This document shows, piece after piece, positions 2,458 through 21,678 of a stretch of DNA of 32,265 nucleotides. Below the pieces are notes generated by a model. It searched no databases. It was given only the letters and a program-made list of their open reading frames with translations, and was not told the DNA's origin. Every line of letters begins with the position of its first letter. Position 1 is the first letter of the stretch. Source of the stretch: Clostridia bacterium DTU065 (GTDB lineage Bacteria; Bacillota; DTU065); assembly GCA_001512545.1 (NCBI GenBank), contig LFSI01000024.1, positions 467 through 32,731 of the forward strand, given 5' to 3'. A program made the translations under genes and the position numbers.

Positions 2458-2763
2458 ATGGCTGCTTTAGAAAAAATCAGAGACGAACAAGTGGAACTCT
2501 TGGTTTCGGCGATTTTGGCCCTCAAAGATAGAGATGAGTGCTACAGGTTCTTTGAGGATATCTGCACCATTGCAGAGATCAAAGCCATGGCTCAAAGAAT
2601 TGCGGTAGCGAAAATGATCCAGGATGGAGAAACTTATACGGAAATCAGCGAAAAAACCGGCGCATCCACTGCAACCATTAGCAGGGTAAAGCGGTCACTG
2701 CACTACGGTGCAGACGGTTACAATACCATCCTGGCAAGACTACGAGATGAAGGTGTGATCTAA
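2458..2763 (+). CDS. hisR: YerC/YecD family TrpR-like regulator, probable histidine repressor HisR
   Basis: 101 residues, normal size for the YerC/YecD family of TrpR-related DNA-binding proteins. The helix-turn-helix lies near residues 60-85 (ETYTEISEKTGASTATISRV), preceded by the TrpR-like helical segment AEIKAMAQRIAVAKMI. ATG 2458 is preceded by a G-run Shine-Dalgarno at 2446-2451. It overlaps hisZ by one base (TAATG), so the two are translationally coupled. In Firmicutes this family is found beside his genes and has been proposed as a histidine-responsive repressor. The two matching palindromes before this gene and before hisG support that role here. Ligand and operator binding are inference. 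Confidence 0.9.
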   Translation: MAALEKIRDEQVELLVSAILALKDRDECYRFFEDICTIAEIKAMAQRIAVAKMIQDGETYTEISEKTGASTATISRVKRSLHYGADGYNTILARLRDEGVI

Positions 2764-6554: not shown

Positions 6555-7262
6555 ATGCTCTTTATTCCAGCTATAGACATTAGGAAAGGAAAAGCCGTAC
6601 GTCTATTCCAAGGAGACTACAACCAGGAAACGATCTACAGCGAGAACCCTCTGGAACTTGCCGAAGCCTTTGCAGACAGTGGTGCCAGGAGGATCCATGT
6701 GGTGGATCTGGATGCAGCTAAGGGAGACGGATCAAACAGGGAGATCATCTGCCAGTTGGCCAAAAAGACCTCTGCAGTGATCGATACCGGAGGTGGCGTC
6801 CGCACAGAGTCCGATATCGAGGAACTGCTCGGAGCGGGAGTCTCTAGGGTGGTCTTGGGGACCGTAGCTCTAGAGAACCCCCAATTGGTCCAGTGGGCAG
6901 TGGCAAACTATCCCGGTCAGATCACCGTTGGTATTGATGCTAAAGGCGGCATTGTCAAGGTCAGAGGCTGGCTGGAGGGAGAAGGAAAGCTGGGCATGGA
7001 TCTCGCGCGGGAGATGGTAGATTTAGGTGTAGATGAGATCATCTACACCGACATCGAAAAAGACGGCACCCTAGAAGGACCTAACGAGCAAATCTACGAG
7101 GAGCTGTGCAAGTTCCCGGTTAGAATTATCGCTTCCGGAGGGGTATCGTCCCTGGAAGACCTCAAAAGGCTTAAAAAAATACCCCTGTATGGGGTAATTG
7201 CAGGTCGAGCGATATACGAAGGTAAGTTCACAGTCAGAGAAGCGTTGGAGGCTTTAACATGA
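6555..7262 (+). CDS. hisA: ProFAR isomerase HisA
   Basis: 235-residue (beta/alpha)8 barrel that isomerises ProFAR to PRFAR. The catalytic aspartates are in [18 protein letters not shown] (D8) and VGIDAKGG (D near 128). The two phosphate-binding glycine segments, DTGGGVR and [13 protein letters not shown], are present, as is the closing [24 protein letters not shown] precedes ATG 6555. It overlaps the next gene by 4 bases (ATGA). PriA-type dual TrpF function is unlikely by phylum, though not excluded. Confidence 0.96.
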
Positions 7263-8617
7263 GAATGGTAAAAGTTATACCATGTTTGGATTTCAAAGAC
7301 GGTAAGGTAGTTAAAGGCGTAGGATTCACCGGGCTGAAAGAAGTAGGTGACCCTGTAAGCTTTGCCAAGAAGTACCGAGATGCAGGCGCAGATGAGCTGG
7401 TGTTTCTAGACATCTCTGCAACCGTCGAGGGAAGGGACACTGCTGCAGGTTATGTGAAGGAAATCGCACAGGCTATCGACATTCCCCTAACCGTAGGGGG
7501 AGGCATCAAGAGCATAGAGGACATGGAGAGACTGTTTGCTCTTGGCGCAAGCAAGGTTTCAGTAAACAGCGCTGCAGTCAAAAACCCCAATCTTGTCAGC
7601 GAGGCTTCTGCGAAGTTCGGCAAAGATAGGATTGTCATTGCCATCGACGCTGCTAGATCTGGAGACAGCTGGACGGTGCTCACCTACGCCGGAGAGAAAG
7701 ACGAAGGACTGGACGTGGTCGCTTGGGCAAAAGAAGTTGAGGAGCGAGGCGCAGGAGCGATCCTTGTAACTAGCAAGGATTTCGATGGCGCGCAAAAGGG
7801 TTATGATCTAGAGCTACTCGGAGCACTCAAGCAAGCGGTGAACATTCCGGTCATCGCCTCAGGAGGAGCCGGCAACCTGGAGGACTTCAAAGCCGGAGTT
7901 GAAGCAGGAGCAGACGCAGTGCTTGCCGCTTCGGTTTTCCACTTCGATCAGATCTCTGTCAGAGAACTCAAAGAGTACCTGGCCGCAAACGGTATCCCGG
8001 TATCTGCGAAAGGGCTAGAACCTGCGTTTAACAGTGATGGTTTGGTTCCTGCTATTGCCGTAGACTACCTGGACAACAGAGTGCTCATGCAGGCCTATAT
8101 GAATAAGGAAGCTTGGGAGAAGACGCTGCAGACCAAAAGAGCTACGTACTTCAGCAGGAGCAGGAAAAAACTCTGGGTCAAAGGAGAAGAGAGCGGAAAC
8201 ATCCAGCTTGTAAAAGACATCGCTCTTGACTGCGACAGAGACTGCGTTTTGCTCTATGTAGAACAGAAAGGTCCAGCGTGTCACACCGGAAACGAGACCT
8301 GCTTTTACACTCGCCTATGTGGTGAAGACGGCACGATAGGTGAAGCCTTGACAATGGTCAGCCGTACCGTTCGCAATCGCAAGGAAAACCCCAAATCGGG
8401 ATCTTATACCAACTACCTCTTCGACCAAGGTATCGACAAGATCCTGAAAAAGGTTGGTGAAGAGACTGCAGAAGTGATTATCGCTGCGAAAAACAACTCC
8501 AGCTCTGAGTTGATCTATGAAGTTGCCGACCTAATGTATCACCTATCGGTCCTTCTTGAGGAAAGGCAGCTCACCTGGCAGGACATTGCCGCAGAACTCA
8601 AAGGTCGCGCACGGTAG
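7259..8617 (+). CDS. hisF: HisF-HisI-HisE trifunctional fusion
   Basis: 452 residues in three parts. Residues 1 to about 252 are HisF, the cyclase barrel of imidazole glycerol phosphate synthase, with D11 (IPCLDFKDG) and D130 (AIDAAR) in the catalytic positions. Residues about 259-350 are HisI, phosphoribosyl-AMP cyclohydrolase, with [27 protein letters not shown] and the zinc stretch DCDRDCV...GPACHTG. Residues about 355-452 are HisE, phosphoribosyl-ATP pyrophosphatase, with [19 protein letters not shown] and [13 protein letters not shown]. HisIE fusion is common; joining HisF to its front is not. HisF differs from the Thermotoga enzyme at several otherwise conserved places (K5, G22, A167, F175, A178). 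No stop codon or slippery run separates the domains. It is the last gene of the operon and overlaps hisA by 4 bases. Confidence 0.95.
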
Positions 8618-8685: not shown

Positions 8686-8719
8686 AAAGGAAAGCACAAA
8701 TAACTTTGTGCTTTCCTTT
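8686..8719 (+). terminator. Terminator of the his operon
   Basis: Perfect 15-bp stem AAAGGAAAGCACAAA/TTTGTGCTTTCCTTT (8686-8700, 8705-8719) with a TAAC loop, 69 nt after the HisF-IE stop. A-run on the left (8682-8688) and T residues on the right, so it could act in both directions. A smaller TGCAGAT/ATCTGCA hairpin lies at 8632-8655. Confidence 0.85.
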
Positions 8720-8757
8720 ACTCAGATTGAGTTATGGGAGTATGTTGGGGTGGGGGG

Positions 8758-8884
8758 AGATGCCGGGGGGTAACCGGCATCTTTATGAAAAAGGGTGTTG
8801 GGATATATAAAAATTTAGGTGATTGCTTGGTTGTGTTCCTCCGGTGCACATATAACGGTGCAAAGCCCAAATAGTTACACCTAA
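8758..8884 (+). repeat. Structured repeat unit A
   Basis: Starts with a 9-bp hairpin AGATGCCGG/CCGGCATCT (8758-8766, 8774-8782), then GGGTGTTGG (8793-8801), a variable middle, TATAACGG (8851-8858) and AGTTACACCT (8873-8882). GGTGT near the front can pair with ACACC at the end, and TTGGG (8798-8802) with CCCAA (8866-8870). The spacings hairpin end to GGGTGTTGG (11) and TATAACGG to AGTTACACCT (22) recur in the other units. Orientation assigned as read; the transcribed strand, if any, is unknown. Confidence 0.8.
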
Positions 8885-8907
8885 TTTTGTTTTCTGGCTT
8901 TCCACAT

Positions 8908-8941
8908 AAAGAAACACTTGGTTTTACCCAAGCGTTTCTTT
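8908..8941. repeat. Isolated hairpin between repeat units
   Basis: Inverted repeat AAAGAAAC-A-CTTGG / CCAAG-C-GTTTCTTT, 13 pairs with one mismatch and a short loop. Not followed by a free T-run, so not a clear terminator. Confidence 0.6.
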
Positions 8942-8975
8942 GACAGAAAGCAGAACGGTAGGTGGTATCTACCTA

Positions 8976-9004
8976 GGTTCGTGAAGGCGAGCTTCTTGCG
9001 AACC
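8976..9004. repeat. Imperfect hairpin between repeat units
   Basis: GGTTCG...CGAACC (8976-8981, 8999-9004) enclosing GAAG/CTTC (8983-8986, 8992-8995) with a small internal bulge and a GCGAG loop. A smaller TAGGT/ACCTA inverted repeat directly precedes it. Confidence 0.5.
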
Positions 9005-9018
9005 TTATTGGGTGGAGG

Positions 9019-9084
9019 ATGTTGGGGTTAAGAATCAAAGAATAAAGGTGGGTGGATGGAAGAGTAACTGCTTACTCTTCCATC
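9019..9084 (+). repeat. Possible degenerate repeat unit with 13-bp hairpin
   Basis: ATGTTGGGGT at 9019-9028 followed by a perfect 13-bp hairpin GATGGAAGAGTAA/TTACTCTTCCATC (9055-9067, 9072-9084) with a CTGC loop. The stem shares the GATG...CATC base of the three full units but lacks the TATAACGG and AGTTACACC blocks downstream. Confidence 0.45.
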
Positions 9085-9144
9085 AGGGAAATAAGAATAA
9101 AAGTTTTATAAATGTATATATGAAAACATTTAAGATCCAAGGGG

Positions 9145-9279
9145 TTGGATGTCGGGGGTGGCCGACATCCAAATGAAAAGGGTGTTGGGGTATAAAATGT
9201 TAAGTGAATTGCATCGGATTAGTTGTTGGTTTTGAGTTTCACCTATATAACGGTAGGGGGGCGAAAAAGTTACACCTAA
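9145..9279 (+). repeat. Structured repeat unit B
   Basis: 11-bp hairpin TTGGATGTCGG/CCGACATCCAA (9145-9155, 9162-9172). Relative to units A and C the C:G pair at the fifth position of GATGCCGG is a T:A pair, a compensating change. It is followed by GGGTGTTGG (9180-9188), TATAACGG (9246-9253) and AGTTACACCT (9268-9277), again 22 nt apart. The inner TTGGG/CCCAA pairing of unit A is absent here. Confidence 0.8.
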
Positions 9280-9353
9280 AACGAAAAGTTTTTTGGTTTT
9301 TTTCGAAACCAGTTCCTAACGTTATATTAAGAAAGGGATTGGTTTGCGGTTTC

Positions 9354-9479
9354 GATGCCGGGGGGTTACCGGCATCTGTATATAAAGGGTGTTGGAAATA
9401 AATGAAACGAATAAAAGCATTTTGGCTTTCATCTGTTTTCAATAGTATAACGGAGAGACCCCAAAAAAGTTACACCTTT
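9354..9479 (+). repeat. Structured repeat unit C
   Basis: 8-bp hairpin GATGCCGG/CCGGCATC (9354-9361, 9369-9376), GGGTGTTGG (9387-9395), TATAACGG (9446-9453) and AGTTACACCT (9468-9477), the last two 22 nt apart. TTGG (9392-9395) can pair with CCAA (9461-9464), and TCTGTT (9432-9437) with AACGGA (9449-9454). A T-rich stretch follows at 9477-9482 and 9488-9493. Confidence 0.8.
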
Positions 9480-9548
9480 TTTAAAACTTTTTTCGCCTAC
9501 ATATATCACAACATAGTATACTGTTTTTGAGCAGGACTTGACCTGGAT

Positions 9549-9605
9549 GTGCTGAAGAAAGAGACTAAAGGCTTGGCTAAAGAGCTAAGGGGGCTACTGA
9601 AATGA
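9549..9605 (+). CDS. Possible 18-residue leader peptide coupled to the next gene
   Basis: GTG 9549 opens a very short frame rich in Lys, Leu and Glu (MLKKETKGLAKELRGLLK) whose stop TGA overlaps the ATG of the next gene as ATGA. The frame can be followed back to 9531 without a stop. There is no clear Shine-Dalgarno in front of GTG 9549. It may be chance, a coupling leader, or the worn end of an older gene. Confidence 0.2.
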   Translation: MLKKETKGLAKELRGLLK

Positions 9606-10222
9606 CCAGCAAGGCTTACAAAGCGGCCTGTCGTTACATACTGGGTCTTCTGGATGCAAAGGCAGAGTTTTCTGTTGCACTGAACAGCGTCATTGCCTAC
9701 TGTCAGAAACAGTTTCCCCATGAGAACTTCGAAGTCTTCAGAAATGAAAGGCTTATCAACGAAGAAATAGAATACCTGTACAAATGGTTTGGAGCGATTA
9801 TTGAGGAGTCTCCGCCTCCAGAGGAGATTGCAATTCTGTGGTTCTATATTGTCACGGAAAACGTAGCCGGAGAATACAGTATGGACTTTTGTTTTGCAGG
9901 AGACAGAAAACAAGAGCCCAAGAGGTTTGGCGATGGTCTCTTGGAATCCCCAGAGTACCTGCCAAACAACCATCTGGCTCATTCTAGTCTCCTTGAGTCT
10001 TGGGCAGACGCTTTCGAGAATCTGCCTTTTGAGTCCAGCTTTTTTGTAGAGTACATGCTGGGAATGACCTACGGCAGCTTCTTAGCAAGGGACCTTGCGA
10101 TACGTTTTGCCGACAAGCTTACAGCAGCAAGTCCGCGAATTGTGAAAGCAGGGTTCCGGCTTGGAGACTTGGTCAAAGTGGGGACAATCGAAAACGGTGT
10201 ATTCACTCGCAGCATTGAATAG
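9602..10222 (+). CDS. Unknown cytoplasmic protein, 206 residues
   Basis: I do not recognise the family. The protein is acidic, without signal peptide or membrane helix, and looks mainly helical. Notable stretches are the aromatic-rich segments EEIEYLYKWFGAIIEE and AILWFYIVTENVAGEYSMDF and a C-terminal part that looks like a small beta unit (RLGDLVKVGTIENGVFTRSIE). RBS-like AAGGGGG lies 10 nt upstream of ATG 9602. It sits between the repeat region and the convergent pcrA gene, sharing a hairpin terminator with it. Base composition and codon use look like the neighbours, so it is probably a real lineage-specific gene. No function can be assigned. Confidence 0.75.
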   Translation: MTSKAYKAACRYILGLLDAKAEFSVALNSVIAYCQKQFPHENFEVFRNERLINEEIEYLYKWFGAIIEESPPPEEIAILWFYIVTENVAGEYSMDFCFAGDRKQEPKRFGDGLLESPEYLPNNHLAHSSLLESWADAFENLPFESSFFVEYMLGMTYGSFLARDLAIRFADKLTAASPRIVKAGFRLGDLVKVGTIENGVFTRSIE

Positions 10223-21576: not shown

Positions 21577-21678
21577 TTTCTTATCAAGAGTGGCGGAGGG
21601 ACTGGCCCAATGAAGCCCAGCAACCAGCGTAATGCAAGGGTGCTAATTCCAGCAGACAAGTGTCTGAGAGATAAGAAA
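21577..21678 (+). ncRNA. SAM-I (S-box) riboswitch controlling metNIQ
   Basis: Class I SAM aptamer. The closing stem P1 is TTTCTTATC (21577-21585) with GATAAGAAA (21670-21678). Conserved core elements visible are AAGAGTGGCGGAGGGACTGG, CCCAATGAAGCCCAGCAACC, GCAAGGGTGCTAATTCC and the final GTCTGAGAGATAAG. GATAAGAA (21670-21677) can instead pair with TTCTTATC (21703-21710), which holds part of the downstream terminator, so SAM binding favours P1 and termination, while low SAM favours antitermination and methionine import. Confidence 0.97.

Follow-up and report, generated by a model that had tools for sequence, protein, structure and literature searches.

A candidate structured noncoding RNA in the hisIE-orf206 gap of one family of uncultured Bacillota

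We analyzed a 32,265-nt stretch of DNA (the window) from an uncultured Bacillota bacterium, in which a 984-nt gap separates a hisIE-type reading frame from orf206, with pcrA following orf206 on the opposite strand (Table 1). The orf206 protein is 38 to 60% identical among full-length copies from the family; it had no match in Pfam, NCBIfam, or PHROGs, and its predicted model (mean pLDDT of 67, a moderate confidence) gave no convincing fold match in the PDB. The his gene cluster is headed by a Trp-repressor-family protein (window positions 2458 to 2763), encoded just before a histidyl-tRNA synthetase-like (HisZ-type) gene and possibly a his regulator.

Table 1. Features in and around the hisIE-orf206 gap (window positions)
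Feature	Positions	Strand	Details
Fused hisF/hisA-type and hisI/hisE-type reading frame	7259-8617		Pfam His_biosynth, PRA-CH, PRA-PH
Strong hairpin with A/T tails after hisIE	8686-8720		Probable (bidirectional) terminator
S unit A	8759-8882	+	P1 hairpin 8759-8781; GGGTGTTGG 8793-8801; TATAACGG 8851-8858; AGTTACACCT 8873-8882; covariance model 110 bits (own sequence in model)
Hairpin AAAGAAACACTTGG..CCAAGCGTTTCTTT between unit A and L domain	8908-8941		Probable terminator
L domain	8954-9090	+	AGGTGGTATCTACCT 8960-8974; hairpin AGGTTCG..CGAACCT 8975-9005; GGGTGGAGGATGTTGGGG 9010-9027; hairpin 9055-9084
S unit B	9148-9277	+	P1 9148-9169; GGGTGTTGG 9180-9188; TATAACGG 9246-9253; AGTTACACCT 9268-9277
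U-rich tract after unit B	9289-9303	+	
S unit C	9354-9477	+	P1 9354-9376; GGGTGTTGG 9387-9395; TATAACGG 9446-9453; AGTTACACCT 9468-9477; covariance model 106 bits
U-rich tract after unit C	9478-9493	+	Possible AAAAAAGTT/AACTTTTTT hairpin, competing with the pseudoknot
-10-like TATACT and AGCAGGACTT box, downstream of unit C	9517-9539	+	Probable orf206 promoter (putative role)
orf206	9602-10222	+	Conserved protein of unknown function; present in 5/5 family genomes

The gap contains three copies of an element, the S unit, of 124 (A), 130 (B), and 124 (C) nt. Each consists, in order, of a GATG(C/T)CGG..CCG(G/A)CATC hairpin, 10 to 11 nt, GGGTGTTGG, a middle stretch, TATAACGG, and AGTTACACCT, the last starting exactly 22 nt past the start of TATAACGG in every window unit. 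A preliminary description of the locus had reported these motifs, their order, and the fixed 22-nt step, all of which are present where it placed them. Its middle of 58 to 66 nt is correct if counted from the start of GGGTGTTGG, but between the two motifs the stretch measures 49, 57, and 50 nt in units A, B, and C. The three units are 54 to 60% identical to one another, which indicates that the duplication is old in the window's genus. The proposal that the copies are old rather than fresh holds for this genus, but in the relative G004 the three S units are mutually 82 to 85% alike.

The second hairpin and probable pseudoknot of the S unit, the U-rich tracts, and an upstream L domain are features that go beyond that description. 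The L domain lies upstream of an S unit in every genome and carries AGGTGGYA..CTACCT and GGGTGGAGGRTGTTGGGG (window 9010-9027). Its exact 18-nt G-rich motif occurs once in the window's own genome, once each in G001 and G002, and twice in G004; it was not found in the two outgroups searched. The order of elements is hairpin-S-hairpin-L-S-S in the window, hairpin-L-S in G002, and hairpin-L-S-hairpin-L-S-S in G004, a terminator-like hairpin preceding all five copies of L; S unit A has no recognizable L domain. Folding of the L domain gave z scores of -1.4 to -3.7. The long L stem of G002 and G004 reads CTGGGTA/TACCCAG, but CTGAGT/ACTCAG in copy 2 of G004, which on inspection of the alignment is a compensatory change. 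By eye, a possible GGYAUC/GAUGUU pairing in the window's genus corresponds to GGCAC/GUGUU in G004. Short peptides in the S or L region, such as MKRVLGY, were considered and rejected, as their frames shift or have no start in other units.

To the extent that we could sample it, the element belongs to a single family and a single position. Among 61 genomes, the exact core TATAACGG-N14-AGTTACACC was found only in the window's own genome, where all three copies lie in the hisIE-orf206 gap, and in three other members of the family, with two copies in G001, a single copy in G002, and three in G004. The gap holds one to three intact S units in all four family genomes in which it is assembled. The fifth, G003, was left out of this comparison, as its contig begins within orf206 and a hisIE search gave no convincing candidate; in the collection used, the class is represented by these five genomes only. 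In total, nine intact units and one truncated unit were recovered from the four genomes, every one of them inside this gap. The truncated unit is an extra first unit in G001, the counterpart of unit A, which is without the 3' half and scores 67.5 bits. The nine intact units score 106 to 132 bits with a covariance model built from the same units; with such scores and a shared intergenic gap, the S units are not a chance pattern.

The covariance model detected no other intact copy elsewhere in the window's own genome, and no intact S unit lay outside the gap in any family genome searched. A sequence similar to the 3' half of an S unit (ACCTATATAACGGT..AGTTACACT), with P1 absent, stands alone in G001 away from the his locus (L011, 1464-1529; 21.7 bits, a weak score). 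A scan of 84,980 species for the exact core returned 15 stretches; GGTGTTGG stands upstream in only three of these, all from this family, and the others look like chance matches. Covariance models run on about 400 genomes of the phylum found no convincing relative, under the strict filters of large searches and in phylum samples that largely overlap. Weak model matches in other families of the phylum (E values of 0.016 to 0.1) were rejected because the cores are absent. Neither a DNA similarity search of phages and plasmids nor a core-pattern search of viral contigs found a relative of the array.

We then considered the structure of the S unit. The preliminary description had noted a C:G to T:A change in the stem of unit B and concluded that structure is under selection. 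The change is real, but one compensatory change in three copies is insufficient for this conclusion, and it is the relatives that provide the evidence. In P1 (GATGCC.GG/CC.GGCATC), 96% of the alignment cells are paired, and three pairs are changed on both sides, in what is a small sample of four genomes only. When the two-helix structure is slid along the alignment, pairing drops to 35 to 51%. These changes indicate that P1 is a hairpin under selection. The closing pairing that had been proposed between GGTGT and ACACC is available throughout: P2 (GGGUGU/ACACCU) is complementary in all units (100% paired) and nearly invariant. A candidate TATATA/TATATA helix in the middle of S was dropped because unit C is unable to form one. 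The single-sequence folding energies of S are unremarkable (z scores of -0.8 to -2.1).

The consensus fold contains a second hairpin, P3 (UUUCACC-UAUAUAAC-GGUGAGA), whose loop is largely the TATAACGG box and presents UAUAAC in most units. It is perfect in G004 unit 3, with 9 pairs, and G001 unit C has 10 pairs including G-U; window units B and C have a short or weak version. Over 7 pairs, 84% of cells are paired, versus 35 to 52% in slid versions, and the summed helix score of 118 compares with a maximum of 96 in 2,000 flank shuffles; P3 does not rise above a row-shuffle control. Read on the + strand, P3 has 22 G-U cells versus 4 A-C cells, which favors that strand. In 9/9 units, the UAAC of the P3 loop is complementary to an invariant GUUA directly before CACC, within AGUUACACCU. 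This pairing is likely an H-type pseudoknot. In this layout, stem P3, a UAUA loop, and the second stem UAAC/GUUA would come in turn, the two stems directly abutting; the third loop would be A-rich and about 6 to 14 nt long, and P2 would close the whole. We infer the pseudoknot from complementarity, since UAAC/GUUA never varies; given that P2 and the pseudoknot show no variation, covariation speaks neither for nor against either of them.

The element is well kept in comparison with its neighborhood. The nine intact units have 48 invariant alignment columns in common, and both position and core sequence are kept across genera, whereas third codon positions of orf206 are 25 to 42% identical among family genomes, which is near random. 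The window and G001 represent two species of one genus. Between them, the orf206 proteins are 60% identical and the third codon positions agree at 40%, which is close to saturation, whereas S unit B keeps 89% identity with its G001 counterpart. The S unit next after the L domain, unit B, is the best conserved in the window's genus, and the counterpart of unit A in G001 is without its 3' half; for both reasons, the L domain and unit B are probably the functional core in this genus.

The signals around the array bear on where transcripts may start and stop. A U-rich tract (at least 6 T in 8 nt, no more than 40 nt downstream) follows 9/9 units, versus 34% of positions in these gaps, although the nine units are related and the counts are therefore not nine independent observations. 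The hairpins ahead of these tracts are weak. The tracts are as would be expected of a + strand RNA that ends there. A sigma-70-like promoter search of the window's gap found none. Downstream of the array, the last S unit ends about 125 to 135 nt before the orf206 start codon and the AGCAGGACTT box lies about 70 to 81 nt before it, in 4/4 genomes. The box with its -10-like TATACT, placed between unit C and orf206, suggests that the orf206 transcript begins downstream of the array. Boxes containing AGCAGGA occur at window positions 9530-9539 and 1052-1058 and in loci L082 and L083, several of them 5 to 9 nt after a -10-like hexamer and near gene starts; elsewhere in the genome they also follow TAAAAT or TATAAT, and the one at 1052 comes after a terminator-like hairpin and upstream of an ORF at 1106. 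The box is possibly a recurrent transcription-start element of this lineage.

Taken from sequence comparison, the array is most likely a previously undescribed structured noncoding RNA restricted to one family of uncultured Bacillota. In our preferred reading, to which we assign a probability of about 0.5, an L domain and a pseudoknotted S domain together make up a structured RNA encoded in the gap, which would most likely be a noncoding RNA in its own right and bind a protein or ligand. The suggestion of a structured noncoding RNA had been made in the preliminary description, and it is supported by the compensatory changes, the strand-specific G-U pairs, and a conservation far above that of the flanking gene. 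Secondary structure appears to be selected, as judged from the changes in P1 and the slide and flank-shuffle controls of P3. The RNA would be read from the + strand, with a 5' L domain and a 3' S domain in one to three copies. In each S domain, the UAAC of the P3 loop would pair with the GUUA just before CACC, so that AGUUACACCU would act as one continuous strand, pairing first with the P3 loop and then with GGGUGU to form an H-type pseudoknot closed inside a larger helix, with the A-rich third loop. The RNA would end near the U-tract after S, a protein or small molecule would bind the folded S domain, and L+S would act as an independent RNA of which the extra S copies are paralogues. The probable orf206 promoter box downstream of the last unit in four genomes fits an RNA separate from the orf206 leader.

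The main rival is a cis-regulatory leader of orf206, with the S units serving as aptamers in tandem or as attenuators that bind a protein, a possibility that we rate well below the preferred reading. Termination would be switched by competition of P2 and the pseudoknot with an A/U hairpin that AAAAAGUU and AACUUUUU could form in front of the U-tract, and it is because this hairpin overlaps the pseudoknot strand and can form in some units that the leader is the strongest competitor. The array lies on the strand of orf206, always just upstream and at a near-constant distance, each unit has its U-tract, and a competing hairpin is possible at unit C, with a similar pairing readable in G002. However, not every unit shows the competing hairpin, the probable promoter and start box of orf206 lie beyond the last unit, and a terminator-like hairpin separates unit A from L in the window and S1 from L2 in G004. 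The opposite neighbor offers a less probable explanation, namely, that read-through transcripts of the his operon carry the array as a 3' untranslated element that stabilizes or regulates the his mRNA. The array always comes directly after hisIE on the same strand and has no recognizable promoter of its own, but a terminator-like hairpin follows shortly after hisIE in all four genomes (G001, G002, and G004 in addition to the window's).

We consider it similarly improbable that the array acts at the DNA level, as a series of protein-binding sites, or as a - strand RNA. Short, unvarying boxes with constant spacing would be in keeping with a binding protein; the hairpins after hisIE score as terminators on the - strand, and two pairs, one in P1 of G001 unit C and the other in the g1 terminator hairpin, would be G-U on that strand only. 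Against both stand the compensatory changes in P1 and the departures from pairing in P3, which on the + strand are G-U rather than A-C. The remaining proposal, a family of small palindromic mobile elements (REP or MITE), is very improbable. Hairpin-containing repeats in several copies and the weak L011 fragment would agree with it, but two findings contradict a mobile origin, namely, the unvarying place of the array between one pair of genes in four genomes, across genera, and the lack of intact copies elsewhere; the phage and plasmid searches also gave no match. What the sequence offers instead is conservation in relatives, with no match to a REP or MITE family.

We also compared the noncoding RNA that we favor with known RNA systems. 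At the gathering threshold, Rfam 15 (4,227 families) matched the window only at 21578, a SAM riboswitch, and had no match in the relatives' loci; at permissive settings, nothing came near threshold for the array, and a tRNA and tmRNA search of the gap found none. These results agree with the earlier statement that the array matches no known RNA form. Riboswitches of the SAM-II, preQ1, and fluoride types combine a compact hairpin with an H-type pseudoknot from the loop to the 3' strand and an A-rich third loop. The S domain, if folded as proposed, resembles them in all three respects, and it has a conserved, aptamer-like core with selected pairing, in the form of its invariant boxes and the compensatory changes in P1. 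Unlike them, it has no covariance-model match, has no clear place in the leader of the gene that follows, and is repeated one to three times behind an L domain. OLE, GOLLD, ROOL, and HEARO are large ornate bacterial RNAs. The array is like these types in having several structured domains and in apparently not coding, whereas it is shorter (L+S of about 330 nt), is not detected by Rfam models, and has other neighbors.

The array also resembles orphan structured RNA motifs, such as those in a survey of motifs from comparative genomics (PMC2864571), in being intergenic, with a conserved structure, a fixed gene neighborhood, and an unknown function; it differs in its lack of a match among the Rfam 15 families and in being known from a single family of uncultured Bacillota. 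The repeated, closed pseudoknot domain proposed for it is unusual. More tentatively, the array may represent a new multi-domain class of bacterial RNA in an uncultured Bacillota lineage. In such an RNA, one to three copies of a closed H-type pseudoknot domain would stand behind a structured 5' domain and form a multivalent scaffold or a tandem ligand sensor. The array looks like a strongly conserved RNA family tied to one gene neighborhood, and its putative pseudoknot core is compact and lends itself to testing. As a sensor, it would give a clue to the role of the orf206 protein; as an independent RNA, it would join the orphan bacterial RNAs that are more conserved than the neighboring proteins.

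The SAM riboswitch itself (21578-21677; 94.9 bits) lies upstream of genes for an ABC transporter with an NIL domain, a permease, and an NlpA lipoprotein, and this transporter is likely a methionine importer.
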